Source of the DNA: Branchiostoma floridae | Lineage: Eukaryota > Chordata > Leptocardii > Amphioxiformes > Branchiostomatidae | Assembly: GCF_000003815.2 (NCBI RefSeq) | Contig: NC_049988.1 | Span: 20,043,712 to 20,107,711 of the forward strand | Direction of reading: 5' to 3' | Length of the DNA stretch: 64,000 bases | Shown: positions 32,001-60,200 of the stretch, piece by piece | How positions within the stretch are numbered: the first letter of the stretch is position 1 | How the letters are laid out: every line of letters begins with the position of its first letter | Notes under the pieces: model-generated | Told to the model about the DNA's origin: nothing | Databases searched by the model: none | What the model saw: only the letters and a program-made list of their open reading frames with translations | Made by a program: the position numbers and the translations under genes

Positions 32001-34107
32001 CGAAACTGGGTGACGCCTTTTCACCAATATTCACCAATTTCTACCAACATTCACCCATTATAAGCCGGATTCACCCAAACGAAAATTGGTTGACTAATGT
32101 ATGAATTGGAAACAATAACGCAAATAATTGAAGTAATCAATACAAGTATTAAGTACTTACAGGGACTCGGTAGCGACCACCCTCTCAGCCAGCCCATACA
32201 GGTTCTGGGTCCCTGTCAGGTCCACAACAGGGGACACGTGGGGGAACGGGACCTTGTCCTAAACAGGGAAAGTAAAAACAAAGTTAGCTTCTAATTAATC
32301 TAATTCATATATTTATTCGTTCGGCTGATGTTACAGGCAGCCAAGGTCGTCCAACTAGCGATGGCTATTACTAGGGACTGGCCTTGGGATCTAAATGAAT
32401 TAATCTAAATGAACAAAAAATAAGACAGATACTCTTCAATACTGTCCAGGACCTTTATATTCTAAACAGAAACTTTAACATTTGTCATAACAAACGACAA
32501 CCATAACCTATTGCAAATGCATTAAAATTTCAGTTTGCAGGGATTTAAATTTGAGGTATAGAAAGAATGAAGTGTTCACAGTGGTTTTGCGTTCTCTGTG
32601 AAGCTGTCACCACAAAATAAGCAAACATAAAACCACTGTAAACACTTCAGCATTTACATGATGGTCTGGACCATAAATTTAGCAAACACTTCTCAGCTGC
32701 TCATACTCACTTCATCAAGAATCTTGTGAGGTAGCAGAAGAGGCGAAGAGGGATGAAATCAAATGTTAGTGTCACATTTTATAGTGATTTTAGTTCTGTT
32801 GGTTTAGCATCAAATGTAACGCTAGTTCACCTTTATCCGTGGGGTGACCTTTATCCGTTGTCTTTAAGGACAGCACATTTAGGAGTATTAAGTCTGCTGA
32901 CAGTGGTTTCAAATTTGCAATATTTTCAAAATGTTCCAATTTGAAACCACCGTCCGTCGACTTCATATCCCTAAATACGTTTTTTCTTACAAACAACGAA
33001 TATGGGTTACCCTCGGATAAAGGTGAACCAGCGTTAAGTGTAATTAATTTTACATTTGATTGATGAGAGAATCTTTCTCACCTTTCTATCCTCTACCTGT
33101 TGTACAGGCTGTTGTAGGTTTGGCATCATGGAGTCCTAGTGACAAGTAAAGAACAATCATTGAATAGTCTACTTCAATAAACCCAATGATGAAAAATTGA
33201 CTTGTCTGTTAATGTACTAAGAGTATTTTTATGGATAAGAGCATCCCACATACCTCTGGTAGTATAAGGTTGTCGTTTATTCTCTTCAAGGTTGTTTTCA
33301 GCTTGTTACTCAAACCCCAGTCTGCAGCAGCACTCTGCTAACAAAAAAACAACAACAAGAAATTTCAAATGTAAGGATCACACAACTTTGATCCACTGGT
33401 CATGAATCACTTTGCAAATGCAAAAGCAGCAAACATTTGAAGAAAAAAAAATACTTTTGTCTGTTTTGTGATCGGATGCTTTTAGTTAGGGTTATTGGGG
33501 ACAAGAAAAAAAACTTACCAAGTCCAAGTCTGTTGCAAAGAAAGAGTACACCTGCAAGAGATTAAAAAATAAAAAATTTTCAATTATTATATCAAAATAG
33601 GAAAAATACCAAATGAGTAAGTCAACATTTCATGTTCTTTTTTTTCTGTTTGGTAAATGTCAACCTTCCAGAGCTAAAATTATTTGGATTGTTATTTTGT
33701 TTGGGGTTGAATGTCTTTACATGAATGTGTGTATGTAAGTGTGTTTGTGCATGACATTGTGCATACTTACAGAGAAGAGGTAGTAGCCGAACAGCTGTGA
33801 CATACACGTGTGTGTGTGTGTGTGCGTGTGTTTGTGTGTGTGTGTGTGCGTGTGCATGTGTGTACTTACAGAGAAGAGGTAGTAGTCGAACAGCTGGGAC
33901 ATACAGATGTGTGTGTGTGTGTATGTGTGTGTGTACATGTGTGTACTTACAGAGAAGAGGTAGTAGTCGAACAGCTGAGACATACAGATGTGTGTGTGTG
34001 TGTATGTGTGTATGTGTGTGTGTACATGTGTGTACTTACAGAGAAGAGGTAGTAGTCGAACAGCTGAGACATACAGATGTGTGTGTGTGTGTGTGTGTGT
34101 GTGCATG

Positions 34108-34156
<49 letters not shown>

Positions 34157-37100
34157 GTGTGTGTGTGTGTACTTACAGAGAAGAGGTAGTAGTCGAACAG
34201 CTGAGACATACAGATGACCACGTCGAAGGCGATCGGCTTCAGCACATTCATCATCTGCATGTACTTGCCTGGTGGCGGGGAGAGGGAAAAACATGTTCAT
34301 TTTCTGCATATGAAGAAAAATGGCGAAGCCAAAAGCACCATACTTAACTGTGGCTACATGATGTATTCAGTCCAGCAGCGTTCCTGCCAGGCATACGTCT
34401 TTACGTCTTTGGACGCATTTTTTTCTGGAAAGACGCACTCAGCTCGGCTGAATGCGTCCATAAAAAAATCTGTAAGAAAGGCTGACCTGTACCACCAGTG
34501 TACAAAATGTATCTGGAATCTTTGAAAAAATCTGTCTTTATAAGAAGGAATCCTACCTTTACAATTTATACTTCAAATTGTTCACTTTCCGGTCATCCCA
34601 TGGGGCGGAGCGCGGCACGTTTTACAACTAGCGGACCCATGTGCGACACACCCAGCCACGCGCCAGTCTGAGCTGTCCGTTGCGCAATATAATTATTTGT
34701 AGTCCGTGAAATAACGTTACATCTGACAGCCAGCATTCTGTAACACTGGAAGAAATCTTATGCAGATTTTATATTCTGATTTTAACATGATACTTACTTG
34801 TCCTCATTTTCATGTATTTGTTAAAGATTTGTGGTTAATACTAGTATTGAACAAACAAACTGTTCTGCGCGAGTGTTGCACATCTCAACAAAAGTTCTCA
34901 CGCTGTGGGCAGTTGATTGGCAGTCGGTTTCTTTGACAACAGGCCGCCGGCGCCAAGCAGTCTAGATTGGCCACCAGGTCCAAATCCAATCATCTTAATA
35001 ACCAATCAGCGTTTGATAAATGTAATGATGTACTCTGTCATTGGTCACCGGAGAAAATACAAAAGTTACCGAGTATTAGCGCACGTGACGTTGTTTTGTG
35101 ATATTGGTAGGCGCCCGTGTCGTCTGGCAAGTTTCTTCCCTAGCTGCTAACAATTTACTATTAAAGTTTCCCCATTTATCCAAGTTAAAAAAGCGGTGTG
35201 CGATAAATAAGTGAAGAATCCAAAACTATACACTTCATTTCTTATTTCCAAAATTTCTTTTGTTTCAAAAAGACAAAATTTGTGGCAGAAAAGAGGCCAC
35301 AATATTGTTGTCAAGCGTCGATCGAGTCGGCTGTGCACTGGCGTTGGCCTCCGTGGCACATGGCGCGGCACGCCCCCCCCCCCTCCCAAGACGGACCGTC
35401 GATCGCAGCGCCCAGCACGTTGGAACGTCTTTCTGGCTACTAGTTCAAGGCTACCCCGGCACTGATCACTGCCAAAGAGGCAACAGATCGTCCTCCTTTG
35501 AGTAATGTATAACGTTCTTGGTCTATTTAAAAATAAATCCAGCCAAAGATTTCGCGCCGAAAACGGGGTTACCTGAGGTCGCAGGAAACAAACGCACGCT
35601 CGTGGAAAATGACGGCACGGCCTTGTAAAACCCCACCGATTCGTGAGTGTGATGTCGTCGTTATTTTATCGTCTCGGAAAACTATTTGATGAGGGAGGTC
35701 GACATTTTTTTATTCAATGACAGAAGAAATTGGCAGAATTTTTCCATGGGCTGACGAACTGGCTAGAGCCCTGTTGCGAAGCATAAAAAATCCAAAAATT
35801 TTCGTGTCTGGAGAAATTATACCCGGGCCAGATCACTGACGGCTGATTCCCCGTGCTATAGTGTATTTTTTGAGAGAGGGCGGTTGTCGATTACTGAATT
35901 ACGGGAGTAAAAGAGGCAACCGACATCCAATCTCAAGCGCATGATTTTCCTCTCAAATTGCGGGAAATTGTGTTTTAGAGGGTTTGAAAATCCAAATTTT
36001 CCCGGGGGAGCATTCCCCCGGACCCCCCTAGAATGCGAGCGCCTGCGGCGCTCGTCTCGCGCCTCCGGCGCTCAATACCCCCCTCAGAAATATTTGGACG
36101 CATACTTTCAAGAACCTGGCGGGAACGCTGCAGTCCAGGGTTGTAGCCAGCACCTGTCCTTCAGTCCATTGAAGGAATTTTTCAGCTGGGGACTGAAAAA
36201 AATTTTCCCCATTCCGTCCCCTGGGACAGACAAAAATTGATATAAAAAAAAACTGAAACCCATGTGTTCTTCTTCACCAAACAGATGCCATTGAACAGCT
36301 TAGTCTACAAGCAAAATTTGCACCTCAAAATGCAGGAAATAGTGTTTCAGACTGGTCTTGATTTAAAAATATTCTGGGACCCTAGAAATGACGCGTAACA
36401 TCACGTCAATAGACATGCCTTAGTTGCTCGATAGGACCTATTCAAAATCAAGGGGACTGAAAATGATTTTAGGCTGGCTACAACCCTGATTCAGTCATAC
36501 CATCTAATACAGACCCAGCTTAGAACTGGTTGTAGTTTTGTTTTTCTTGTGAATTACAAAAAATTTGATTGTTGGGCAATTTTGTTTTAATTTCCTTACC
36601 AAACAGTCGAAGCACATTGAGCGTGGTGTTGGTCAGGATCGGGGCGTTGTTGAACTTCCGGCTCTTGTCATACTTCTTCCTGGAATCTCTGTATATAAAA
36701 CACACAAAAAACTACCATTCAATCTACTACATCAGGTAAAATTTTCATGTTAATGCATTCTCTTGGATGGGGCATAAAACCAGAAGTCCAGTGTTTTTTT
36801 TAAATTTTTTTATTCACATTTATTTAACGAGGATTTGACAAAAAGCAAGGTTGCATATCTGGGTCTTCTCCTCTCACACATGACAAAAATAAGGACACAT
36901 ACAAAATAACGAACACTAAATAACATAGTCACAAGATAATGATAACGAAGTCAAAATAAACAAGGAATCAAGTAACAGAATGAATGTGCAGCTGGTTTAC
37001 AAACTTAGGAATAATCAAATAAGGCTATATAATCAACTAAAACTAAAAACGACCTGTCTGTTGGATGAACTTGAATACGACATCAAATAAAAGACAATTT

Positions 37101-40100
37101 TGAATGGGAGATAATAGTGCATTTCCCCTAAGTAGAGTTGAACATACAATATTTTCAGTGGTGTGTCTTGGGTCAAATGGTAAGTCCCGTGTTTGGGGAG
37201 AGCCCCACCTTGAGCATGTTAAAGATCCCACCACTCATCAAAGAGAGTAGAGGTTCCTTCCCAGTGTGAGCGGATCAAACCTAACAGTCCAGTCTTACAC
37301 AGCTTGTACTTACTGTACAAATTGGACTGTTAAACCTTAAGGTGGTTTACTGATCCAATGAAACATTACCCTAGCCTCACTGTGTACAATTAAGAATATC
37401 CACAAATGCTTATACCGTAGAACCAATAGTGTAAACGACATGCTAGACCCAATATATTGACTTACGCATACCAATAGATATCCATATATGTCTGTTTAGT
37501 TGTACTGTAAGTAGTTGTTATACTGTAGACCTTACGAAAGTCACTGTACTTTTGTAGTGTCAATAAAGATTTCTTTATTGATCTTCTGATAGAGTAAGTC
37601 AAAGTACGCATAACAAACCTTCTGACAGGAGTCTCCCCGGTTTTCTCATCCACAAAGTCCTGTTTCAGCTCCTCTGGTACGTCACTGTCATCACTGTCAT
37701 CATCCGCGTAGGTGTTCTCTTCCTTCTCATCTTCATCATACTACAGGGGAGTGGGAGGGACAGGGTCAGAAAATCTACTAGGTGTGTGTGTGTATGCATA
37801 TGTGTCTGTGTGTGTGTGTGTGTTCACGCTGTCATCACATGTCATCATCCGCGTAGGTGTTCTCTTCCTTCTCATCTTCATCATACTACAGGGGAGTGGA
37901 AGGGACAAGTTCAGAAAGATCTAGGTTTACAGATAATTAGATGTTTAATTACTTCCAATACAATGTTTTCTTCTTCACCTCAAGTAATTCTTTATCAGTC
38001 TTTTTGTTCTATAACATACTGTACAAATGCTGAGTTTTTGTGCTTCTTCAGGGGGTTTTGTGGATATTCATCTTCTATTCATCTATTTTTGTGTGTCAAC
38101 ATTCAATGCAACCTTCAGTTAGCAATATTTCTTCCTGATCTTACCCCAGGACAGTAGAGTTTTCTCTTTACACAGCTACTTGATATTACTAGCAGACATC
38201 TTCCTCAGACAGTTTTTGACAGGATTTCTGATAGTCAATGTAGGTGTCGCTTTTGCGGCAAGAACACAGTCGCAAACTGGTTGTGTAAAATGAAAATCTA
38301 CTATCCTATCAACCTGATGAAATTACTTTTGGTGGCCTTACCCCGTTTGTTGCCATGACATCCTCTCCATCATCCTCATCCTGGTGCACATCAAACGGGT
38401 TGCCATGGTCACCGTACCGCACAAAGAAGCCCTGCGGAGCGTCCCCTGGCCTGTCCCTGGTCTCCGCCAGCTTGGCAGGGGAGCTCTGGGGACTGGACAT
38501 GGCGGAGGAGAGTTTCTTCACAAGGCCTGAGCGGCGCAGGAACTTAAACTCCTGGGGAAAAAATTTTACAATCTAATAGAATTATACGAATACTAACGGC
38601 AGAGAAACTTAAACTCCTGAGAATGAGAAAAGATTAGAACAGGTTAACTTTCAGGTAAAGGCTTAACAAATGATGTCAAAGCATCGGAGGAACTTAAAAC
38701 TCCTGGGAAAAGATGAAGACTGAACAATTGACATTGAAATGAAAAAAAAATGGACACTGTCAGATGGATGTAAAAAAAAGGTTAGAGAGACAGAACAAAA
38801 TTAAGAATGAATAGATGCAAAACTAAAAGAAAATAGAAATATAGAATAGAATAATAGAATAGAATGATAAAATAGAGTGTTGGAATAGAATGATCAGAGA
38901 ATGGAATTATGGTCTAAGAATAGAATCATATGGAATGGAATAGAATAGAATAGAATGGAATGGAAAGGAAAGGGGGAAAAAGGAATTTGATGTGCATTCT
39001 ATTATTAGACTACAATGTATTCTATGTTGTGATATCAATATCTCAGTTGGCAGTTCAACTTATCACCATTAGATGGACATTGCAAGGACTCATGTCAGCC
39101 TTGATAAATCTCTCTCAAAACAAAAGGATGTTATCAATAATCAACACACCTGCAGGTTGAGGATGGTGAAGTTAGACTTGACAGGACAGAGCTCCCAGGC
39201 CTCGTTCTCAAGAAACATCCTCAGCTCGTCCATCCGGGACCGGTGGTAGTTCTTAAAGTAGTTGATGCTCTGCTTTCTTATGGAGTCCTGCAGACCTTCC
39301 GACTTACTGTTGCAGAACTCTTCACCAATCAGCATCAGTCTGTAGAGATAACCAACCAATCAGAATTAGCCTAAAATCATACCCAACCAATCAGCATTAG
39401 CCTGGAAAGGTAACCAACCAATCAGAATTAGCCTAGAATGATAGCCAACCAATCAGCATTAGCCTGGAAAGATAGTCAGATTTAACCTAAAATGACAGGT
39501 TATCAGCATTAACCTAGAAAGATAGCCAACCAATCAGTATTGACCTATAAAGATAGCCAACCAATCAGTATTGACCTAAAAAACATACCTAACCAATCAG
39601 CATTATCTTAGAAAAAAAATCAGAATTAGCCTAGGAAGATTCAGGAAGAAAGAAAACATTAACCTAAAAGGACAGGCTATCAGCATTGCCCTAGAAGGAT
39701 AGACAACCAATCAACATTAACCTAAAAGACAGCCAACCAATCAGCATTGCTCTAGAATGATATCAACCAATCAGCATTGCCCTAGAAAGATAGCCAACCA
39801 ATCAGCACTAACCTAGAAAGATAGACAGTCAACTAATATAATCAGCATTACCTCAGAAAGACAAACAACCAATCAATCAGCATGAAACAGAATGTCTTAC
39901 TTGTTAACAAGGTCCAGAACATGAAGGAAGTCATCAAACTTGAAGACGGACAGGTCCGTTCCCAACAGGTATAGTTTCACCTTCTGTTGGACATCCTGAA
40001 AAAAAAACAAAAAAAAAAACATGAGAAATCTCACACAAATACTACAAAAGTGTAACTGTATACAATGCTGGATAGTTGAATAAATTTTAATATTTGTATA

Positions 40101-43100
40101 TATATATATATATATATATATATAAGTTGGTATGTTCCTAAAGAATGTGAAAGAAAAAAGCTTCAAGAGTATATAGTAGATACAACATGCTTTTCAATAA
40201 CAATTGGAGTGAAATGGATTTTTTTTCCAATTGAGACAGGTGTGATACCAATTTTCCATGCAATTTTCACCTCTTTTACTAACACTGACAGCCAAAAGTA
40301 TGAAGTAATAAAGAATTTCTAAACGTTTGTGCTGCATTTTGTTTCCTTATTAATTTGAAATTTTGAAATGCGACCCCATTTCGCAAATCCATAACATTAA
40401 TGTAGTGACTTATTCATACGATGATGATGAAAGTAGTGACTTAACACTTAGGCCCAAAAATGTCACGTTGCCATGGTTACCTGCCATATCCGAGCCAGCC
40501 CATGTTCCAGCTTCTGTTTCACATATCTCTGGTTGAAGGTGGCTTCTATGTTGATGGAGCTGGTCGCATCTAGGGGTATGGTATATTAAACCATCAGTTG
40601 TGTTTTGTTTGTGTTATAATTGTCTGTATTACTCTCCAAGCAGAGGTTGGACACCGGTCACGAGACATAAAGAAAATGGTCCAAAACAGGAAGGCTGATG
40701 AATACGCCTAAACATATTATATTAAGAAAACAGCTGGAGCCAAACCTCTGCTTGGAGATTATGTCTGTATTAGTTCTGTGGATTCAAAGTAAATGCTTGC
40801 AGAAATATGAGTATTGTTAGACCTTCCTGATTATGCAATGATCATGCATGACTTTAACATTTATAGCTAATGTATACCAAACATAACGAAGTTCCTTTAC
40901 ATTTGGGGCAGTAAATCAATTGATACAGGTGTTCAAGACTAGGTGACATTTGATCACCAGTTCTAATATTATCAAATGAGCTTCCATAGAAAAATTTGAA
41001 TTCAAATCATGTCCGCAGAGTGTGCCTGGCTGTTGAAAATCTTAATAACAGATTTGGATCTTGGAATTGCTGTTTTTACACATTTTGGTTTGAAGTTGCT
41101 GAATTTTCTCAACTTCTGGCACATTTTACATAATAAAATATGTGTTTTCTCAGGTGGATATGACATTAGATAAAATACAGCATAGTGTTTTCTGTATCAC
41201 CTAAGGCTCCAGCCCTCCCGTGGGTCGAGAGGGCTCAGCCTGACAAATGCAATCAATTGTTGGGATGGGACAAGGGCTCTAGCCAGCGTCCGTTTTTCCG
41301 TCAATTGACTGAAATTTGCCGCATTTGCCGGAAAAATTTTAAAGCCAATCCGTCAACCTTCACGGACAAAAATTTGATAAAAGCTCCTTGGTGGAAGCTA
41401 CAGGCTGCTTGGGGACGCCGTCCACGGCCGTAAAAGCCACACACTGTTTGTTTTGCTATTGTTATGATTGTTGACAATGTGTGTCGGTGCCCTTTTGCAT
41501 ACGATAATCACATTAAACCCGTTTTTCAAGGTCTCAGTTCAGTCTCTCTAACTCCTGGAATAGTGTTTTCGCGACAATGGGAATTGGCTGACGGAAAAAA
41601 ATTTCGAGCTGGCTAGAGCCCTGGATGGAACCTTGGTTATTTAGAATACACTGTTGTGTTCTGCATATGCAATGAATATAGAATACAACACGGTGTATTC
41701 CGTATCACCCTATACGCCCTCCGGCCAATCCGACCCGCGCCGCGGGAGGGCTGGGACCGAGGGTGATGCGGAATACACCGTGTTGTATTTTATTTATGTC
41801 ATACCCACCTGAGAAAACCCATGTTTTGATGCGAAATGCGCCAGAAGTTGAACAAATTTGGTGCCCTCGAACAAGAAGGGTTGCAACAGCAATGTTCCAA
41901 CGTCCGAATCAGGTATTCGAATTGCCAACTGTGCCGTATTCGGCCCGTTCGAAATGGTTTGATTTACTCGAAGGAAGCCTGTGTGATACTCCTTTCGAAC
42001 CTGTGCGATACGGAAAGTATGGCCCGGTCCGGAACACCCGTATCAAATGTTTTTGCTTCACAGGTATGACATAAAATCCATTATCATTGTCATTCTCTAT
42101 ACACTGTGTAGCAGTACCTGAAGTGCTGAACTGAAGGCCTGTTAGTGTAGCATAGTGTTAGACAGAGAAACAGGAGTTAGAACATAGGATAAGGAGGAAA
42201 ACTTCAGCCATCTTAGTGTATAGGTTGAACAGTCAGCTATCAACATACTATAGCTTATTCCAAAAATGTTACAGTCACTTACATCATTTAATAGTAACAA
42301 TTTGTCAAATCAATAAAAAATTACATATTTCATTAATTTGTTTTCTTCATTTATCTGTTCATCCATTCCTTTTCTTTCATTCATACCTTCAATCATTCAT
42401 TTGTGATTTCAGACTCTTGAACCTTCTTCTGCTGCCTCCTGATTGGCTACTGAGTAGTGTGTGAGTTATTTCAAAATTTCGAACCTGCTTCAGCTGTGTC
42501 CTGATTGGCTAGTGAGTTAACTGTGAATGATTTCAACGTTTCAAACCTGCTTCTGCTGCCTCCTGATTGGCTAGTGAGTTAACTGAATGATTTCAACATT
42601 TCAAACCTGCTTCTGCTGTCTCCTGATTGGTGGAGTCGTGGAGCTCGTGCCACTGCATGGTCTTGTGGTAGCTGTTCATCACGCCCCACAATGCCTTGCA
42701 CAGGTCCATCAGACAGGGGATGTAGCTCTCTGTGATGATGTGCTAAAAGGGGGAGGGGGGTAGGTACAAGGTCAGTACAAGGTCAACAGGTAAAACAATA
42801 TTTTATTAGAATGATATCTACATGTAAGACAAGGGATGTAGCTCTCAATGATATGATGTGCTAAAGGCACTAATATACTAATTTAGCTAATAATTTAGCT
42901 AATATGTCTTTTAGAATTTGAAAGTGACACATCTGTTGTACATCTGATAAAGGTCTACGATGATGTACTGGGGCCAGGGGAGGGGGGCATGTACAAGGTT
43001 GAATCATATCAAATCAAGATTTAGATATTGTTAGACCTGATTAAAACAGTGTATTCTAATTCAACATTTATAAAAACACTGCAATGCTACTGCCATCAGG

Positions 43101-46100
43101 TCTAGTAGATCTAAAATCTATTTTGTTACACCTCTTTTACTAATCAAGGGAGCACTAAATTAAAATAGTGATACACTATAAACTTAGTATAAGTTCTATA
43201 TAGAGATCCTACAGCCATCACTAATGATGTATAAGTGTTTTGTGTGTGAAAATACCACAAAAGTAGATGAAAGCAATGGAGTTACAGGGCTCGAAATTCA
43301 TTTTTGGGATTAGGTGCTCTGGTGCACCCAGCTTAAAAAATTGGGTGCACCAAAACTTTTTTGGGTGCACCACTTAAATTTAAGTAATAACCAATAATAA
43401 AACTTAGTCACAAGCTATCAAATTCTTAAACAAGTACCATGACAGACATTTTTTATATCTTTCTAACACTTAGATGTCAAGAATATGATGTATACTAGCA
43501 TACTTAAATATCTTTACATACATAAACCTAAGAAAATATTTAGGTGCACCCTGTGCACCCACAAAAAATAATTGGGTGCACAGCTCCAATTTTGGGTGCA
43601 CCCAGTATTTCGAGCCCTGAGTTAAGAGGGAGAAATATGGCCAGGACAGTACATACCTTATCCTGTGATGGCACCAAGCATTGAAGTTCAACAGGGAGAG
43701 AAAACAGTTTAACAGCAGACAGTTGAAAGCAATGGTTATACAGAATAGGGACAGTCACTTTTAAATACAATTGATATCTTTTACATAATGTAATTCTGAA
43801 TAGAGTAAGGGAGACCAAGTACATGATATCAGGATGCAATCATTGTCACTTCCACTTGCAGATAAGCAGAATAGTTAAACGTTTGACAAACAAGAAAGAT
43901 ACAAACAGAAGCACACAGGGAGGCACATCAATGACAAACAAACACAGCAAAAGTTCAGTTCCAACGTGGATGACCCAATATCTTGTTTCTAAAGCCATTA
44001 GGCCTAAACACATCATCAAGACAATTCTTTACTGGAATCCATTGGTTATTTGAACACTTTTTACACCCAAACTTATCGATCAACACTCCATAGGATTATG
44101 ATGGTAAAGTTGTACATGTTGGACACAGGAAGAGACAGTTCAATATACTCACAGTACAGAGGTCCTTGTACTGCATTTTTTGGAAGTTTGTGTCCCCAGT
44201 ACCAGAGCAGAGTTCCACGTAACCCAGTACGATCTGGAACGCTGTGTTGTGGATGGCACTGGCGTAGTGCATGTGGAGCTGGTCCATTGCAGTCTGAAAT
44301 CAATCAATCAATCAATTAATTAATCAATCAATCAATTGCTTAAATGCTGATTAAAATGGAAAAGTAGAAATTCTTCAACTTGTAACAAACAGCTAGCAAT
44401 TACACATGGTTCTTATGTGCACAAAACAAAACAAGAAATTTCCCTGCGTTTTCAACACATTGTCATTAGTACTAAAAAACTATTGACAATGTCAGACAAC
44501 AAGATCATCCCATTCTAAGTACTGGAATATCATGTCAGGTCTAAATCTCCTGAACCAGATCCAAGGATGGTCTCCATCTATAAATTCCTGGTAGCCTATA
44601 ACTAGTATAAGTGGATCATAGCAATTCAGCACATCACCAATTTGACTCAGTCAACTTCAACACTGGATTGTTCATCTTGGCCACAGTTAGGGTTAAAATG
44701 TTGGGCTAAGCTGGTAAAATGCCAAAGTGTCCGACATCCTTTCATACGGGTATAGAAGAAAAGGGAAAACAGTACCTGAGTTTTCCCCAGCAGCCTGTAC
44801 GCCGTCTGCACCTTCTCATAGTGGGCAGCATCAAAACTGTTACAGGTCTTGGACAGGGCCACGTCTAGTTGTTCCTGAACAGAAAGATTTAAATTAGCAT
44901 GGTCAGAAAATAGGTATGGAAACCAATTAAACTATTCACATCTGTAACTAATCGAGTGATGTCACAGTAGAAAATTCTGGACAAGGAATGATGTTCACAT
45001 TTGTATGGACAAAAAGTACAAAACAGGCTTGTTTCGACCATGTACAGGTAATTACAATTAGCTTTAGGCATGATCTTACAAATAAACCATTTTAAAACAT
45101 GCTACTAACTGTACAAGCTGCTTCTATAGTCCAAAAACTTTTCAACATGGCTTTAGTCTCTAGGTAATGGGTCATTCATGAGAGCAGAATTTCAAATTTT
45201 AGTTTCACTGAATTTGCTAAAGAGAAAAGATTTGATAACTGATTTTTAAGGATAACATTAAAAAAAGTCTGCATGTGTATCTTTCACCCTATTGACTTGA
45301 CACTCTATACAACCATATTGAATTTCTAATCAGAAGTGTAGCGAGGACCTCTATCATCTCGAGTGTGTCCTGCAGTTTGGAGCTGAGATCACTGATACAG
45401 CTGTAGTGTCTGAAGATACTGGCTGCCTTCTGACACTCTACACAACTACATGTCTACTAAATCTTTATCAGAAGAAGAGTAGCGAGGACCTCTATCATCT
45501 CGAGTGTGTCCTGCAGTTTGGAGCTGAGATCACTGATACAGCTGTAGTGTCTGAAGATACTGGCTGCCTTCTGACACTCTACACAACTACATGTCTACTA
45601 AATCTTTATCAGAAGAAGAGTAGCGAGGACCTCTATCATCTCGAGTGTGTCCTGCAGTTTGGAGCTGAGGTCACTGATACAGCTGTAGTGTCTGAAGATA
45701 CTGGCTGCCTTCTGACACTCTACACAACTACATGTCTATAATCTTTATCAGAAGAAGAGTAGCGAGGACCTCTATCATCTCGAGTGTGTCCTGCAGTTTG
45801 GAGCTGAGGTCACTGATACAGCTGTAGTGTCTGAAGATACTGGCTGCCTTCTGACACTCTACACAACTACATGTATACTAAATCTTTATCAGAAGAGTAG
45901 CGAGGACCTCTATCATCTCCAGTGTGTCCTGCAGTTTGGAGCTAAGGTCACTGATACAGCTGTAGTGCCTGAAGATGCTTTCTGATGCCCTATACAACCA
46001 TATCAAATTTCTATCACAACCATATTAAATTTTTATGCCAAGAAGAGTAGCGAGGACCTCTATCATCTCTAGTGTGTCCTGCAGTTTGGAGCTGAGATCA

Positions 46101-49100
46101 CTGATACAGCTGTAGTGCCTGAAGATGCTTTCTGATGCCCTATACAACCATATCAAATTTCTATCACAACCATATTAAATTTTTATGCCAAGAAGAGTAG
46201 CGAGGACCTCTATCATCTCTAGTGTGTCCTGCAGTTTGGAGCTGAGGTCACTGATACAGCTGTAGTGTCTGAAGATGCTGGCTGCCTTCTGACACTCTAC
46301 ACAACTACATGTCTACTAAATCTTTACAAGGACGTCCTTGATCTTTATCAGAAGAAGAGTAGTGAGGACCTCTATCATCTCGAGTGTGTCCTGCAGTTTG
46401 GAGCTGAGGTCACTGATACAGCTGTAGTGTCTGAAGATGCTGGCTGCCTTCTGACACTCTACACAACTACATGTCTACTAAATCTTTACAAGGACGTCCT
46501 TGATCTTTATCAGAAGAAGAGTAGTGAGGACCTCTATCATCTCGAGTGTGTCCTGCAGTTTGGAGCTGAGATCACTGATACAGCTGTAGTGTCTGAAGAT
46601 GCTGGCTGCCTTCTGACACTCTACACAACTACATGTCTACTAAATCTTTACAAGGACGTCCTTGATCTTTATCAGAAGAAGAGTAGTGAGGACCTCTATC
46701 ATCTCGAGTGTGTCCTGCAGTTTGGAGCTGAGGTCACTGATACAGCTGTAGTGTCTGAAGATGCTTTCTGATGCCCTATACAACCATATCAAATTTCTAT
46801 CACAACCATATTAAATTTTTATGCCAAGAAGAGTAGCGAGGACCTCTATCATCTCTAGTGTGTCCTGCAGTTTGGAGCTGAGATCACTGATACAGCTGTA
46901 GTGCCTGAAGATGCTGGCTGCCTTCTGACACTCTACACAACTACATTACTACTAAATCTTTATCAGAAGAAGTGTAGCGAGGACCTCTATCATCTCGAGT
47001 GTGTCCTGCAGTTTGGAGCTGAGGTCACTGATACAGCTGTAGTGTCTGAAGATACTGGCTGCCTTCTGACACTCCAGACACAGCTGGATCGCTCCAGGGT
47101 AGTCTTCCTCCTGAGGAAATGAAAGAAAGAAAATGTTGTTACTGATATCTAAATCTATACCTCAATCTAACTGACACGTGTCATATTCATAGCTGAATGC
47201 TAAGAGACTATCTTTACTGTCAACTTAGTCTCAACTCTCATGGGCTTTTTGAGGCCGAAGGGGCAGCGGGTTGTTATGCACATGTGTCTAGGGCATGATG
47301 TTGGAAAATGGATCTCATCCCCTACTTTCAACCGTCATTTTACCTCCCCAACAGAAGTCAGGTACCCATTTTTGGGCATGGATGGAGTAAGGAAAGTTAT
47401 ATAAAAAAAAAAAAAAAATGGCTTTCCTTAATAATTATTTCTTATGTGTACTAGTCTAGCCATTTGGCCATTCAACAGTGATGTCATTCAGATATTAACT
47501 TTGTAAAGATACATGTTTATTAGATAAAGTATGTCTAATAACCATCCGAAATATCATCTATTTGTAGGAGATAAAAATTCCTCACCTCGAGCATTTCTCT
47601 CAGCCTCACATCTGTTCTTTGCTGTTAAGAAAATAAAAAAAAAACAATCCATTAGAAGAATAATCCACTGTAAAACTATACCCATTTCAACAGAAGCCTA
47701 TTATATAAGCAACACTTTAATACTAGATATATCATACATTTGTCAATAGTCATCAAATGAAATTTACACACTACAAATAAAAATCAATAAAAAAGACCAT
47801 TTTAATCCTATTTTTTCCATAAACAACTTTGTCATCACCCCATTCCTAGATGGTCTCCAGTGCACTTACCAGAGTCTTGATGGTCCTGAGAGAGTTCATT
47901 AACCCCAGGAGTTGGGAGCGCTTGCGCTGATTGGCTAACAGACCCAGGCTGGCCGTGGTGAACCCCTGCTTGGCGATCTCCAAATGTCTGTTAAACAGAA
48001 CCACACAAAATCAACTTTCTTTCAAGTCAATGATGAAACTTAAATGAATTATTGACATGTACAATTCCAAAACCATTTTCCATGAAGAATTACGACCACT
48101 TTTTAACTATCACAACATGATATTATGAGACATTCCTACTCAAAATTCATTAAAAAATAAAATAAGCTTAAATCGTGGACCATGAACATATGTGGGAGCA
48201 TAGCACTATATAATTATGTAGTATAACTATAAGCATTGATGTGAAAACATCTACAAGATGGAGACAACTTTCAAGCAAACAAACAGTTCAATAGTCGAAA
48301 CTCTTGGAAACACTGTTACAGGAGAAACACTACCAGCAGAAGAGGAGATATCCCATGTGTGTATCTTCCCTTTTTTCCCTAGTCAGAGGATTCCTTATGT
48401 TTGCTTTGGAGGATACATATCCAAAAGATTTCCTTATTGCATAAGAAACTGTGACTTATGTGTTTCCAATGAGTTTCATCAGGTAATCAATCACTCCTAG
48501 GAGGAGAGCATAGCAGACAGCAGGCTGGCAGGTCCTTGTGTGTCTGTGGTTGGAGCAATTGGTCATGGATATTATCTATGCTTTTCATTGGGTTTCACAT
48601 GTGCATCCTTCAGTCATACATTGGAATCACAGACATTTTCACAATAAAAAAGTGTCCATAATCTATGTGTCTACTGTATGACGGAGCTTTGCGATGAATA
48701 CCTTCTGCCATTGATACAGATGACCCTTTAAATACTGCACACATCGTACATGTACATAGTACCTATGATAACCACACATCGTACATGTACATAGTACCTA
48801 TGATAACCACACGTACCTTCTGCCGTTGATACAGATGACGTTGGCCCCCTGCAGAGCGGTCTCCAGGTCCATGACCCGCTGCAGTTCCTGTGCGTACGCC
48901 GGGTGGTTCTCCAGCACAAGCTCAGACACCTTCTTAGACACCTGGAGGGACAAAAAAGTCCCTTTGCTTTTGCTTTCCTTAATAAAACAATTATGATGGA
49001 AAACTTTTGAGATCAGAAATCATGAGAAATCATGATAAGTCAAGCACATTTGGCCAGAGCAACATTCAGGGTTGTAGCCAGAATCCGTCCTTCCGTCCTT

Positions 49101-52100
49101 TGACGGAATTTTGCTACTGAGGACAGACAAAAATTTTGCCCATTCAGTCTTTTGTGATGGACAAATATCGGCATACAAAGATATCAATTGGACCAAGCTG
49201 AGTTTACCAGCAAAATTTGTCCCTTGAAATAAAGGAAACGGCATTTCAGAGGGTCTAGATTTCAAAATTTTCCGGGAGAGCATTACCCCGGACCAAATAG
49301 GGCCGTCACGCTTTTGACCGGATTTCTATTCAAAATCCAAGAGATGGAAAACATTTCAAGTTAGCTAGAACACTTAGGCAACATGTAACAAAAAAAGATG
49401 ATCTTACAGCAGCTAGCTGCCTGCGCAGCCTGTTCCTGTCCTTGTCTATGTCTTCTAGACTCAACTTCTCCGGACCATCATGTAGCTTCTGTAGATTCAG
49501 GGATGAAGAAAAATAAAACAAATTCAGATTCCTCCAGCATTGAGGAGCAGATCATTTAGCGTACGATACCCATGGTTCCCAGCTAACACTTGCACAATGA
49601 ATAACACGCCACTTTCTATGATGAATACACTATGGGATCACATAGGATGTTGTTATCCACTGTGTCTGGCGCACAGTATTTGGGAGGCAGAGCCCATCAA
49701 AGCTCTCCTTCCACTGCCTTTTACCCGAGTCCCCAGCGAAAGTAAAGTACCCATTTTTACACCTGGATGAAGTGAGGAAAGTCGTGTAAAATGCCTTTCA
49801 CAAGGGTACAAGATCGGTAGCATGACAGAATTTGAACCCAGGACCTCTGGGTTATGTGCCAAACACCCTGCAATTACACATGTGTACATTGAAGAAAACA
49901 TTTCCCTTCTACTGGGGAAACAAAGAAATATGCAGCTGTCCCCACCTGAAGTCTTTTTTTTTTAAATCTTTATTGTAAAAAAAAAAGAGAAACAGGTTGG
50001 TGCATGGCGTACCTTATACATGTACAATATACATGTAGAAAGTAAAAACTTGCTAGCTAATAAAAGCTTTCCCTATTCTGTGTTCTACATTGCTGAATAC
50101 GGGTTAAAGAAACAGGTCGGTACATGGCAAACACTTAACAAATGACTACAATATACAAAGTGGGAGCTAGCTCTCACCTGCAGCTCATGCTTGCTGGGGT
50201 CCCAGGAGTCATCCTTGTAGTACACCTCCTCTATACTGTCTATGGCCTGCAGGGAACAACATCAAACCCTCACGGTAGTACCTACGACTCACAGTCAGTT
50301 TCAACACTTAGCATATACAGTGTACATTGGATTCCCTTTGGTGTGAACATTAGAGTGAACACACAGGCATGCATATGATGGATCTAACATGCTACATCAA
50401 ATTAATTTTCATAGTACTTTCATAATTAAAGTACTTATGACTCACATCAGTTTCAAGTGTATACATCTCTTCCTTGTTCATGAACTACTACTTAAAGAGT
50501 ACTTTGTAGGCCTCGAGTACATAGGAAATTACAAAAATGTATGTTGTATTATCCATCGGAGAGAAAGCAAATTCACTTTTTGACTTGAAATGTTACTGAA
50601 CTGAAAAAAACTTGGGATTCTCATTTTAACTCTGACATGAAAATTTGGCATTTCAAAGTACCCTCGACCTTTCTACAGAGGCCCATGGCACACAACTTGA
50701 AGCTGGTGTGATTGCACAATATTTAGGTATGACATAAATACATACACACGCATGCTTGTGTACTCACACATGTGAACACAAGAAAACCATAATCACAACT
50801 AATAAGGAAACTGAACGCTGCAGGAATCCACTAATGATCAATATGACTGAGCTTCACAGCAGCCATGCTGTAAGCCAGTAAGGCCTTGTATCCCAGGGTT
50901 TTACTTTTTCGGATAGATAAGAATTTTATGCTTGTGCTCGCTACCTGCTTCTCTAAATGAAAACCAGCTCTAACTACAGCGCAAGTGTACAATTGTACGT
51001 GTGAAGCAGAAGTACACTGTCAGCATCCACCTTATTCAGACATGTAAGACAACACTGTTGTTAGGCCTAGGAAAAAATGTTGTTTCTAGTTACCCGACCA
51101 AAACTTAAACCTGCGAACACTGGCCTTTTTTGTCCACAAGGGACATTGGATTTTAACAGTTGTAGCATTTATACAAACAAAGTCATCTGTTTCAATAAAA
51201 AGAAAAGTGACATCAATAGACCCACTGAACATAGGTATGTTGAAACACTGCTAGTACAATTTTACAAAAAAAGAAAAATTTGATGTTGATAATACCAATG
51301 CTCTGATGATGATGCGCTTTAATTTTTTGCATCACATCATCTAAAAAAAAGTGTAAGGAAAGCCCTATCTATAGTGACCCTATTTTTTTTTTCAGGATGT
51401 TACAACAATATTTATTTTCTTAGGCCTTAATAAATCTTAACTTAAGTCATCTGTAAATACTTTCACATCTTGAGTCCGATACCGGGATCCATATGACTTA
51501 AGTTAAGACTTATATACCTTAGCAGAGGCTATTGCTGACAATGTACTCACTAGTCAAACCAACTGCAGAATTTTTCATTGCAATTTAATCACTGATTTCA
51601 GACTACAGATCAGTTTGATTCAAAATCAGCTCCTTGCAAAAATTTGTCTGATTCAAAATCAGCTCCTAGCAAAAAATCAGTTTGATTCAAAATCAGCTCC
51701 TAGCAAAAATCAGTTTGATTCAAAATCAGCTCCTTGCAAAAATCAATTTGATTCAAAATCATCTCCTAGCAAAAATCAGTTTGATTCAAAATCAGCTCCT
51801 TGCAAAAATCAGTTTGATTAAAAGTTTTAAAACCACAGGACGTTGATTCCAAAGCTGATTGCAATTTATAAAAAAAAAACGAAAAGGCGGCGTCGACACA
51901 CCAAAAATGACACATAGATAGAAACGTGGCTCTCACACGTACAAACGTGCACTTGACTATCTCGGTGTGTTCATGAGACCAACTTCGGTCCCGGGTAAAC
52001 GAGGTTGTGGGTTCGATTCTCGAACCTGCGTTTTTAGAGCTGTGCTTGTTGCTTTTCTTCCTGCCCATGAGCTTTGCCTGCAGAGTCTTGAAATAGCAGT

Positions 52101-55100
52101 CAGTGAATCAGTGGAGGGGTGTAGTCTCATGCCAAGATGTTCAGGGTGGCTGGCTGCTTTTTTGGCTGCTTTTCTATGTTTTCTGATCACTTGTGCATTT
52201 TCATAAGATCAAACTTGTTCAGCATCCCACCACCAGAAGCCATATGCACAGGTCTTCTGAGTGGATAGCTGTTTTTTTTGGCTGATTTTTTAATGTTTTT
52301 TTTTAATGATCACTCTAGAATTTTTAAAAGATATTGTATTATGCCCCGACAGAAGCCATAATCATAAAAGACCACTGGACAGTCAAAAATGCAAAGATCA
52401 GCCAGGAATGAAAAAAAAAACTGCCAGCCACCTAGAAAGTTTGTGCATGAGACTATAGGGGATGGGGGTTGGGGTGGGATCAAAATTCAAGAAATCTTTT
52501 CACCTAATGAAGTTGATTCTTGTGAAAATCTTTACTGGGAAATTTGGATCCTTTTATTTTGTTTTGTAAATTATACAGCCATTGCTTTGAGAAATCTTCA
52601 TAGTGTACCGAAATATGTTTATATTACTACAAATGAAACATTTTTATTTGTTGATACATTTTCATCTGATTACTTTTTGTTGAAGTGTTTATAGCTTTGC
52701 GATAGCACAACTTGCCATGATCAACATATTCTACTTTTGATTCAAACAGCGACAGTGTTTACACATAAACATACTAGTACATGTACATGTACCTACCTCC
52801 TGATCGGCTAAGGGATCGTTCGGGAACTCTCTCTCTTCTTCCTGTGAAAACAAAATTTAATTTAAAAAAATAGATCCCACTGTATTATGATGACCCTGAA
52901 ACATCACCTGACATTCTATGGTGACAATCCATGCTTGGCAGGACTTTGTGTCACTGTTAAACTTTTTGAAAAATCCTACATTGAGAAGATGTTTGTACCC
53001 AGGGTTGTAGCCAGCACCCGTCCTTCCGTCCTTTGACAGAATTTTGTGACTGGGGACGGAAAAAAAATTTGCCCATTCCGTCCGCTGTGAGCAAAATCTA
53101 ACCCTCAAAATGCAGGAAATAGCGTTTCAGAGGGTCTAGATTTCAAAATTTTCCTTGGGAGCATGCCCCCGGATCCCCCTAGGAACTCTGCGTCAAAGCC
53201 TTTAAAAATCGAGGGGAAGGAAAATGTTTTCTGGCTGGTTACAACCCTGTTTGTACCTACATGTAAGTAATATATAAATGTAAGTCAGGCGAAGACTTAG
53301 ATGTATAGTGTACGCCTGTACGGCTATATGATAAGTTAAGGGGAAGCATTAGGTTTAAAGTCTGTATATACATTAATTTTATTATGTACAGCAAACTCGG
53401 TAATGTTACATGTAGACTTAGAGAAGAGTGTAACCACTCTAGTTTTCAGTTTAGTCTACACCAGGGGTCTAGCCAGTGTCCGTTTTTCCGTCAATTGACG
53501 GAAATTTGCTGCGTCTGGCGGAAAAATTTTAAAACCAATCCGTCAACCTTGACGGACAAAAATCCTAGGTGGAAGCTACAGGCGGCTTGGGAACGCCGTC
53601 CACGGCCGTAAAAGCCACACACTGTTTGTTTTGCTATTGTTATGATTGTTGACAATGTGTGTCGGCGCCCTTTCGCATACGATAATCTCATTAAAACCCG
53701 TTTTTCAAGGTCTCAGTTCAGTCCTTCTAATTAATTTTCGCGGTTTTCGCGACGATTGTAATTGGCGGACGGAAAAAAATTTCGAGCTGGCTAAAGCCCT
53801 GGTCAGCACATACCTCATAGATGTACAGCGGCCTGTAGACTCAGTAGACTAGAATATATACTCTGTATACTATAAGGTTGAGGGACATGTGAAATAAAGT
53901 CTGTACATACCTTATAGATATACAGCGGCCTGTCCGGTGATGTGGGGCTTCTGTCCTCATCCCCCACCTGCTGCAGCTTGTCCTGTAACAGGTGCACAAA
54001 ACTCTGGAGACTGGACACAAAACTCGCCATGGTCTGTTCTATATCTGTAATAGACCTGTGCTACTATAGTCTGCGTAGCACACCAGCTTCACAGGAACGG
54101 GGTAGACATGAAACTCTGGAGACTGGACACAAAACTCGCCATGGTCTGTCTGTTCTGTTTCTGTGATAGACCTGTACTACTATAGTCTGGGTAGAACACC
54201 AGCTTCACATGAAACCTGTACTGGGCCTGGGGTCTGATTCTGTAGCTGTCTGTGGGTTACACCAGCTTCACAGGGTAGACACAATACTATGTAGACTGGA
54301 TACAAAACCTGCCATGTCCTGTCTATTCTGTATCAGACTCTGGGACACACCAGCTTTACACCAAACCTGTACTCGGGTCTGGTTCTGTACCGGTCCTGCA
54401 CTAGTCTGTGTACTAGAACACCAGCTTCACACCAAACCTGTACTCGGGTCTGGTTCTGTACCGGTCCTGCACTAGTCTGTGTACTAGAACACCAGCTTCA
54501 CACCAAACCTGTACTCGGGTCTGGTTCTGTACCGGTCCTGCACTAGTCTGTGTACTAGAACACCAGCTTCACACCAAACCTGTACTCGGGTGTGGTTCTG
54601 TCCCGGACCTGCACTAGTCTGTGTACTAGCACACCAGCTTCACAGGATCATGGTAGACACGGACCATGAAACCTGCCGTAGATTCTAATCCGGACCTGAA
54701 CTGGTCTGTGGAACATGCCAGCTTCACAGCAACATGGCAGACACTAACCTCTGTAGACTCTAAACCAAACCTGGCAGGGGTTGTTATTGTATCTATGTGT
54801 TACTGTAAATGCAGAAATGTTCGCGGTGGATTAATGTTCGCGGTTTTCGCGGCGGCCGCTTCACCGCGAATTTAAAACCACCGCGAACATTTTTCCATAA
54901 CAGTAAGAGACTACAGTGCATGGTGCTACCGCGAAATTAAATCCACCGCGAAAAGTACATTTTCCCGCTACCGCGAAATTAAATCCCCGCGAACTTAAAT
55001 GCATTTACAGTACTGTCAGTCAGAGGATAACCTCCTTAACAGGCAAGTGGATGCAGCTGACTAAAAGACTTGCAGAACACTCCATGCCCGATCCCAGGCC

Positions 55101-57213: not shown

Positions 57214-60200
57214 CTAGAAAGGCATGATAGACCACACATTGCAATGATTGTGACTTTGACTTTGACGATTGTATTCAGACCTGGTATAGGATAGAATATA
57301 GATCACTGAGTTCTGAATTGAAATAAAGTTAAGAAAGCATTCATAAACGGGCTTGGCATTGTACATACATTCCTTATTGCCGTTTAACGTCAACTTTAGA
57401 AGCTAGACGTATTACTTGTAAAGTATTGAAACAGCCCCAATTCTACTTACCAGTCGCACTTTGTGCAGAAGAAGCACCGCTGCGTCCGCCTGGCTCGGTG
57501 GGGCACCTCGGCCCAGCCTCCCGTGTGCACCGCGCCCCGGCCCCGGCACTGCGCGCACAGCGCCCGACCCACGGGCATCACCCCCTTCCCCTCACACGCA
57601 CAGCAGTCCTCGCACAGGAGACAGCGCACCCTGCCGGTTTGGGTGTGCGCTGCAGGCGAGCCGTGCAGGAAGCCTTTTCCCTCGCAGCGGTGGCAGATGT
57701 TGGAAGCAATGGGTATGATGCCGTTACCTACAAAAAAGACACAAGAACTAGGCGTCACTGTCTACGTGTAAAAAAACAACAACAAAAGAGCTCACTTCTT
57801 TAGCATGACATTGATCTCATGGTGGAGTAATAATCTACCAGGGTCTGCCGTAACATCACTAAGTGAAATCAGAGATCGGACAATCATATGTGTGAGCACA
57901 AATTGTTCTACGACTACACAGCCACCAATCTTTTCAGAGCTTTACTAAAATTTATTTGGCAACAATTTCACAAAGTTTGGCAAATTTTCCACTTTTTCAT
58001 GTTGCCATAACAACTGTTTATACTGGAAATTCGTTGTTCAATGTCAGACCCAGGTGAGCTCATGTTACATCTACATTGGCACAACCAGGTGAGCTCATGT
58101 TACATCTACAAACATTGGTACACCCAGGTGAGCTCATGTTACATCTACAAACATTGGCACACCCAGGTGAGCTCATGTTACATCTACAAACATTGGTACA
58201 CCCAGGTGAGCTCATGTTACATCTACAAACATTGGCACACCCAGGTGAGCTTATGTTACATCTACAAACATTGGCACACCCAGGTGAGCTCATGTTACAT
58301 CTACAAACATTGTCACACCCAGCTGAGCTCATGTTACATCTAAAAACATTGGCACACCCAGCTGAGCTCAAGTTACATCTAAAAACATTGGCACACCCAG
58401 GTGAGCTCATGTTACATCTACAAACATTGTCACAACCAGGTGAGCTCATGTTACATCTACAAACATTGGCACACCCAGGTGAGCTCATGTTACATCTACA
58501 AACATTGGCACACCGAGGTGAGCTCATGTTACATCTACGAACATTGGCACACCCAGGTGAGCTCATGTTACATCTACAAACATTGGAACAACCAGGTGAG
58601 CTCATGTTACATCTACAAACATTTGAACAACCAGGTGAGCTCATGTTACATCTACAAACATTGGCACACCCTGGTGAGCTCATGTTACATCTACAAACAT
58701 TGGCACACCCAGGTGAGCTCATGTAACATCTACAAACATTGGCACACCAAGGTGAGCTCATGTTACATCTACAAACATTGTCACACCCAGCTGAGCTCAT
58801 GTTACACCTACAAACATTGGCACACCCAGCTGAGCTCATGTTACATCTACATTGTCACAACCAGGTGAGCTCATGTTACACCTGCCCAACCAACGTTAAC
58901 TCTACTCTTGTCTTGCCTTTGCAGGTGGTACAGCGGCGGCAGAAGTGGCAGGGGAGCTCACGTGAGGGTGCCCAGTGCCACGTGTCGTCACTGTGCGTGA
59001 TGCCGATTCCGTCACACCTGTACAACAACAACGATATTGCCGTAGATGTTAAAGGCCATGAGAAAACGGTCGAGCAAGTGGATGGAATTTTGAAACGGTC
59101 AGACGTTTCATGTAGCATGCGTTGTCTTTCGTCAGTGGCTGAATGGAAATCTATAGAGGTATCAATTTTAGCCCAAACTCTAAATCGTTGAAGGAAATAA
59201 ACTTGATATTTAACAATAGATAATACTAATAGACATTATCATTTATCTACAAGAATTGGAACAGTTGAATAAATGCATTACGTAAGTAATCAATGTCTAT
59301 AGTTATGCCTTGATTTGATTTTCTTTCAATACCAATTCTGATGCTTAAGGTTAACATTACAAGCGCTTTAAGTAATAAATTACCGGTCAAAGGTGATCAG
59401 AAGTCTATATCGTCCTCCGTCCCACACACGAAGACGTTCAATCGTAACGCGTACCTGTAGCAGTACTTGTACTGTGTCGGGTCATAAAGTTGTGACTCCG
59501 AGTCGGAGTCCGAGTCGGAATCTTGGTCAGAAATCTCGTCTTCCCAGCCAAGCAGATCTCTCAAGCTCGTAGCAGACGGCGTCTCCATGGGAACGCTGGT
59601 CTCCATGGAAACTTCTGATGACGCAGAACTTGGGGCGTAGGTACTGCCCGCGTGCGAAGACTGGCTGGGAAACACCGTGGGCCTGTTAGTTGCGAAGTAT
59701 CCGCTAGAGGGCATGGTTGAGTAGCCTTGTTGCCCTGACTTGGAGGAGGCGCGAATTCCACATGTAACATCCGAATCGACGTCCCAGACTTTCGCATCCA
59801 ACTTGAAGTCGCTCAAACCGGCTTCCGTGGAGCTTCCGAAGGTGACGTCACTCGGATGTAAGGACATGGGGAGTGTTTGGCTGGAGGAAACCTGACTGAA
59901 CGGCGCCATGTTGGAGGGAGCTGGGCAAAATGGCGCCATGTTGGCTGAAGCTGGGCCATATTGCGCCATGTTGGATGAAGCCTGGACAAACGGTGCCATG
60001 TTGGAACCGTCGACACTTTCAGACGAAGACCGGTGACGGAAACTCCGGAACTTCTTGCGGATGACGTCCTCAATAGAGCGCAGGTTGATGAGGGAGCGGC
60101 GACGGGAGGTACCGGTGGAACCCAGGGTGGAGGAAGATGGCGTCTTCTGGCTCACGGAGGTTTTCGAACTCGACCTTGACGGGAGGTCGCTGTGGGGGAT

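Follow-up and report, generated by a model that had tools for sequence, protein, structure and literature searches.

The VPS50 Locus

The gene for VPS50 (syndetin) lies within a 64,000-nt stretch of the genome of the lancelet Branchiostoma floridae (assembly GCF_000003815.2, contig NC_049988.1, positions 20,043,712 to 20,107,711; hereafter the window, numbered from its first letter), together with exons of an uncharacterised neighbouring gene, LOC118425189. Several introns of VPS50 contain copies of the exon-intron border that they adjoin, and it is the distribution and probable origin of these border copies that are considered here. Spliced alignment with P0001, the B. floridae syndetin-like isoform X2, matches 982 of 982 residues identically and defines 32 coding exons, two of them very small.

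28958 to 56148, minus strand: VPS50 (syndetin) coding region, 32 exons, 982 of 982 residues matched to P0001
43657 to 43662, minus strand: VPS50 microexon of 6 nt (exon 12), encoded in the B. floridae protein
42118 to 42138, minus strand: VPS50 microexon of 21 nt (exon 14), encoded in the B. floridae protein
43322 to 43371 and 43553 to 43602, intron 12 of this minus-strand gene: an element 50 nt long, present twice, whose GGTGCACCCA-like motifs are inverted

The gene was rebuilt independently of the exon list in a previous interpretation made from the letters alone (the sequence-only reading), with alignment of a guide protein assigning it to the minus strand and spliced alignment to P0001 then supplying a model that superseded the guide-protein version and its false exons. 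The 30 exons of the earlier list fit this model, but the two microexons were absent from it and the real count is 32. Exon numbers here follow the 32-exon model, of which the earlier list is the remainder after removal of exons 12 and 14, so that exons 2, 6, 9, 12, 15, 16, 17 and 19 of that list are exons 2, 6, 9, 13, 17, 18, 19 and 21 here.

The microexons occupy the introns flanking exon 13. Nine homologues, drawn from the 120 listed of 1095 found, were aligned, and the aligned proteins of B. lanceolatum and seven other deuterostomes have no counterpart of either exon, with the qualifications that placement of the 6-nt exon depends on good splice sites and that the echinoderm alignment is loose around the 21-nt exon. 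The paired 50-nt elements of intron 12 are 76% alike and possibly represent a small mobile element.

Copies of Exon Borders in Adjoining Introns

Copies were sought by a uniform scan in which a 34-nt probe centred on each splice border was aligned, with gaps allowed, to 1.2 kb on the intron side and matches scoring at least 18 were retained; the probe is so short that any match at this score necessarily crosses the border. Eight of the 62 VPS50 borders (12.9%) proved to be copied: the donors of exons 2, 6, 9, 13 and 21 and the acceptors of exons 17, 18 and 19. These are exactly the eight borders, on the same donor or acceptor sides, that the sequence-only reading had picked out. The located copies of all eight sit within the adjoining intron, as set out below together with associated repeats.

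53802 to 53836, minus strand: donor border of exon 2, copied once (original 53899 to 53933), 35 nt, 89% identical
53999 to 54784, minus strand: intron 1 arrays, 116- and 71-bp units among others
48699 to 48724, minus strand: donor border of exon 6, copied as exon tail and GTA only, 25 of 26 nt
45308 to 47071, minus strand: exon 9 array, 12 borders GAG^GTCCTC (original and 11 copies), spacing 138 to 162 bp
42403 to 42630, minus strand: exon 13 donor border and three copies, 60- to 62-bp units
42827 to 42999, minus strand: acceptor border of exon 13, copied twice in degenerate form, absent from the earlier finding
39324 to 39875, minus strand: exon 17 array of 31-bp units, beginning in the first 16 to 17 nt of exon 17 and the acceptor
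38594 to 38716, minus strand: acceptor border of exon 18, copied twice in degenerate form
37829 to 37917, minus strand: acceptor border of exon 19, copied once at a distance of 145 bp upstream, 95.5% identical over 89 nt
33726 to 34079, minus strand: donor border of exon 21, copied four times within a CA-rich array

Shuffled probes matched at a rate of 0.0025 (0.25%, about 1 in 394), which corresponds to approximately 0.15 borders expected by chance, and each of the weak copies (those of exons 2 and 6 and the two of exon 18) outscored 300 of 300 dinucleotide shuffles. The yield depends to some extent on the settings used, with seven borders recovered at a score of 20, six by self-BLAST, six to eight by an ungapped measure, and five of the eight by a border-crossing test limited to top-scoring alignments. 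Masking of simple repeats reduces the yield to four or five borders and hides exon 21; an enrichment test on the masked sequence lost this exon in the same way and was replaced by an ungapped version.

The two degenerate copies of the exon 13 acceptor lie outside the reach of the uniform scan. They show that this exon is copied at both ends, and the earlier description of it as copied at its donor end was thus sound for the donor while overlooking the acceptor. Unit lengths of about 31, 60-62, 80-100 and 138-162 bp agree with those first reported, and both lengths and sequences differ from border to border, in keeping with the earlier claim that the units are unrelated and form separate repeat families rather than a single family that has spread. 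The extent of decay is similarly varied, from near identity (exons 19, 21 and 9) to heavy degradation (exon 18 and the exon 13 acceptor). For exons 2, 6 and 19, each with a single listed copy, the term array is a generous one. A total of 27 copies were listed with an AG or GT, a count to which the search patterns, which included those letters, contributed, and from which non-matching exon 17 units are missing.

Some finer features accompany individual borders. At exon 6, a 35-bp direct repeat lies between the original donor border and its copy, and the intron 1 array unit adjoining exon 2 resembles that exon's acceptor region and may be copied from it, though it does not retain the AG. The units of exons 13 and 17 have CCAATCAG in common, with 17 sites present where 2.5 would be expected; as 15 of the 17 fall within those two arrays, and on opposite strands, a meaningful shared motif was rejected in favour of coincidence.

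Border Copies against the Background of Local Duplication

A count of eight copied borders acquires meaning only by comparison with how often other positions in the same gene are copied. When the same probe was applied to 2363 intron positions at least 50 nt from any border, a copy was found within 1.2 kb upstream for 15.8% of them and downstream for 15.2%, or for 11.4% with each of 29 introns weighted once, whereas only 2.8-4.5% of 178 exon-interior positions were copied. Sliding the gene model along the sequence, a procedure that preserves both exon spacing and repeats, gave 8.6 ± 2.4 border matches over 81 shifts, 64% of which reached the observed eight. By the ungapped measure, seven of 32 exons have copies compared with 7.6 ± 1.9 over 2436 shifts, and seven of 62 border positions compared with a shift mean of 11.4 ± 2.9, which is below expectation. 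When loci rather than positions are counted, there are 19 duplicated ones, and eight of them touch a border, compared with 6.6 ± 1.7 under random placement (p 0.29). None of these four enrichment tests, three position-based and one locus-level, shows a significant excess, although the last leans toward one.

The distribution of repeats within introns can be viewed in the same light. Of the intron positions lying no more than 10 nt from a border, 11% are covered by repeats of any spacing, compared with 28% of those beyond 400 nt, and for short-period repeats coverage beyond 400 nt is about 20%. Short-period repeats occupy 12.6% of VPS50 introns compared with 4.8% of the remaining window, so that the gene is somewhat enriched in them; when all spacings up to 1.5 kb are admitted, repeats cover more of the sequence outside the gene (28.8%) than of its introns (19.4%).

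A preference for borders in VPS50 is therefore not supported, and exon edges have copies no more often than other parts of its introns do. The contention that borders are singled out, and that eight copied exons in about 30 is remarkable, is not supported by the comparison of 12.9% of borders with 15-16% of intron positions. That borders should prove no more often copied genome-wide than random segments was the outcome named beforehand as telling against it, and this is what was found at the scale of VPS50 alone. The gene was moreover chosen for its copies, a selection that, if anything, raises the observed count.

Several observations weigh against this conclusion. All five locus-level settings give a mild border excess, with p from 0.07 to 0.30; among them, one yields nine of 34 loci where 6.3 are expected (p 0.12) and another seven of 13 where 4.7 are expected (p 0.10 by random placement, 0.07 by shift), and a border preference of about 1.5-fold may be compatible with such counts. 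The coverage profile of short-period repeats taken alone is also less clear, at 7.3% both within 10 nt of a border and at 200-400 nt, and the sample is small, VPS50 and the six borders of the neighbouring gene amounting to 68 borders in two genes.

These same locus-level counts, along with the involvement of donor and acceptor borders alike, are what speak for a process aimed at borders, in which splice sites or their surroundings would set off duplication, perhaps through transcription-coupled or spliceosome-linked breaks. Their excess over expectation is non-significant, however, the border rate equals or falls under the intron rate in the three position-based tests, and the neighbouring gene in the same window has none of its six borders copied. 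A border-aimed process is accordingly considered improbable.

How Border Copies Might Arise and Persist

The explanation that we judge quite likely is that the copies are mirage-type minisatellites (mirages being border-crossing tandem repeats described in other lancelet genes) produced by indiscriminate tandem duplication rather than by any process directed at splice sites. Short tandem duplications with units of about 31 to 162 bp would arise throughout this DNA, blind to gene structure, and some would then expand by unequal exchange. With 62 borders spread over the 27 kb of VPS50, it must be common for a unit of 30-160 bp to take one in, and a unit that happened to cross a border would give rise to an array carrying copies of the splice site. 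The carrier would remain viable as long as the full exon and the original splice site stayed intact and in use, while duplications within exons would mostly be purged by selection unless in frame.

The coding consequences of the copies bear on this last point. All 27 listed copies would lead to a premature stop if used in place of the original site, and the original must therefore almost always be the site selected. Among the sites of each listed case, the one closest to the exon body is the original, as follows from the geometry, and the unextended exons encode P0001, which shares its cluster with 12 other members, exactly (982 of 982 residues). The universal premature stop could also be taken as a sign of function, with the copies serving as decoy sites that throttle VPS50 via nonsense-mediated decay or as arrays of weak sites that recruit the splicing machinery to exon 9. 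The donor of that exon, GAG|GTCCTC at 46984-46985, is the weakest of 31 by a matrix built on VPS50's own sites (score 0.4, compared with a gene median of 7.1) and is present 12 times unchanged across 1.7 kb. Most random extensions of at least 60 nt would probably yield premature stops as well, however, the arrays differ so widely in decay and sequence that no common design is evident, and mirages are reported, in the available portions of the published accounts, as leaving splicing undisturbed (PMC3087553, PMC3902484). A splicing role is the least probable of the explanations weighed here.

Partial artefact, in the form of misassembled or merged haplotypes and wrong copy numbers, deserves consideration in view of how the sequence was probably produced. 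According to the accessible text of PMC7269912, the B. floridae chromosome assembly was built with ARACHNE from about tenfold Sanger reads and merged with HaploMerger2, and the mirage in the globin gene BflGb6 is described, in the part of PMC3087553 available, as aberrantly assembled. Yet the copies in VPS50 differ among themselves and from their originals, some heavily; several units of 31-141 bp would be expected to fit within one Sanger read; and for the PGBD5 repeats, re-examined Sanger data and new Illumina data confirmed the structure, as far as the accessible text of PMC3902484 relates. Artefact is thus very improbable as an account of the copies, although the copy numbers of the longer arrays may be wrong in a Sanger assembly merged from two divergent haplotypes (PMC7269912, in its available part).

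With these counts, a curiosity of single genes becomes a measurable rate. The similar frequencies of duplication at VPS50 borders and at intron positions suggest that duplication of a splice site beside the original is nearly neutral. Should the same hold genome-wide, mirages would require no special mechanism, and from their number models of intron gain by border duplication would obtain a base rate. VPS50 also illustrates that counts of border copies mean little unless the general density of local repeats is controlled.

The Exon 9 Array

The exon 9 array contains a pattern that fits less easily with indiscriminate duplication followed by neglect. Over the 63 nt adjoining the exon 9 border, the five distinct changes found among the 11 copies are all synonymous, unlike the neutral drift anticipated for dead copies (p = 4.5e-4 at an expected 21%). 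Allowing for differences that arose in the real exon 9, p is about 0.005 before correction for eight arrays; the pattern was noticed after inspection of all eight, and the 15 nt beyond the 63 nt were omitted. Three of the copies have a 7-nt deletion and residue-altering changes further out, toward the unit edge, and two of these three, whose upstream part would be unable to code, are likewise synonymous-only in the inner 63 nt. Taken array by array the skew is likewise suggestive only, with synonymous changes making up eight of ten in the arrays of exons 6, 9, 19 and 21 (2.2 expected) and nine of 21 in those of exons 2, 13, 17 and 18 (5.2 expected), the latter count being inflated by an exon 18 indel.

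The 11 copies diverge by 3.0% on average where they derive from the exon and by 23.4% where they derive from the intron, a difference that was not read as constraint, given that rearranged blocks away from the border supply much of the larger value. Use of the copies as cassette exons was also rejected: in-frame options exist, but the best acceptors listed for them score no more than 3.3, compared with 4.1 for the weakest real acceptor of the gene. For the inner part, exchange with, or recent growth from, an exon under selection would be the simplest reading and is held as a lead. A more specific version, offered tentatively and less likely to be right than wrong, is that the minisatellite has its master copy in exon 9 itself, exon and 11 copies exchanging sequence so that mainly variants accepted by selection in the exon persist in the array. 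On this view the array would form an intronic record, and a possible donor, of exon variants, carrying with it twelve copies of the weakest donor in the gene.

Relation to Mirages and to Models of Intron Gain

To the extent of the available text, mirages have been described in the amphioxus Adh3, globin, troponin C and PGBD5 genes and suggested to feed intron gain (PMC3087553, PMC3902484), with the statements about Adh3 and troponin C taken second-hand from these two papers; two further amphioxus loci with similar structures are pointed out in the first of them, as is evidence from reverse transcription-polymerase chain reaction (RT-PCR) that other mirages are spliced normally despite identical sites (PMC3087553). 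The mirages of Adh3, BflGb6, BflGb9, troponin C and PGBD5 resemble those of VPS50 in being minisatellite-like tandem copies across donor or acceptor borders, with units of 10-160 bp in the adjacent intron; in the published mirages many copies are reported to carry splice signals (PMC3087553, PMC3902484, as far as accessible). In VPS50, tandem border-crossing copies in the adjacent intron are found at eight of 62 borders, and unit sequence and length are specific to the border. The likeness proposed in the sequence-only reading is thus borne out by structure, and, judged on that basis, VPS50 is a further example of an arrangement already known from other lancelet genes. What distinguishes it is extent, with eight exons affected in one gene and one exon at both borders, in contrast to one border per globin gene and two in PGBD5 (PMC3087553, PMC3902484, available portions).

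Other systems offer more partial parallels. Amphioxus VCBP3 resembles VPS50 in having whole or partial exons, some with splice sites, in introns near the coding exons that they resemble; unlike in VPS50, these copies are not termed tandem arrays in the accessible text, where the data are marked as not shown (PMC2632668). Intron gain by tandem genomic duplication shares with VPS50 an intragenic tandem duplication able to carry splice signals (PMC4974935, in the part available). There, however, the duplication is proposed to create a new intron (PMC4974935, same portion), whereas P0001 has no exon edge that corresponds to a border copy in VPS50. An origin of the two microexons in the sequence beside them was likewise rejected, as exons 12 and 14 have no similarity to adjacent stretches exceeding that of shuffles (p 0.13 to 0.73). 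In P0001, then, no duplicated border serves as a new splice site. The open-access library searched, with most subscription journals outside its coverage, yielded no paper on Branchiostoma VPS50, nor, in what were mostly listings and abstract openings, any genome-wide rate of border copies.

The Neighbouring Gene and Other Repeats in the Window

LOC118425189, represented by the B. floridae protein P0123, contributes four exons and six borders to the window; P0123 is 100% identical over its match and aligns without gaps. Alignments of P0121 and P0122 add short introns within the repeats of a large exon, one of them of 54 nt, exactly one repeat unit with copied edges; these were taken as aligner gaps and the P0123 model was used. 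Three further repeats lie outside VPS50.

60331 to 60438: perfect 54-bp tandem duplication, in frame, in a long open frame of the neighbouring gene
58048 to 58880: intronic array in the neighbouring gene, 21.6 copies of a 39-bp unit, open in several frames
25093 to 27427: large array, about six units of 379-396 bp, lying outside VPS50 and downstream of it

The 54-bp duplication is probably coding, judging from the open frame and from P0121, a protein of a B. floridae x B. japonicum hybrid that matches this frame and has the 18-residue segment only once; the P0123 model begins downstream of the duplication. If the segment is coding, tandem duplication hits exons too and persists when the frame is kept, in line with indiscriminate duplication. 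The 39-bp array stops 36 nt short of a donor of the neighbouring gene and does not cross it. A GC donor (AAG|GCAAGA) stands at 58917 in the spliced alignment of this gene.

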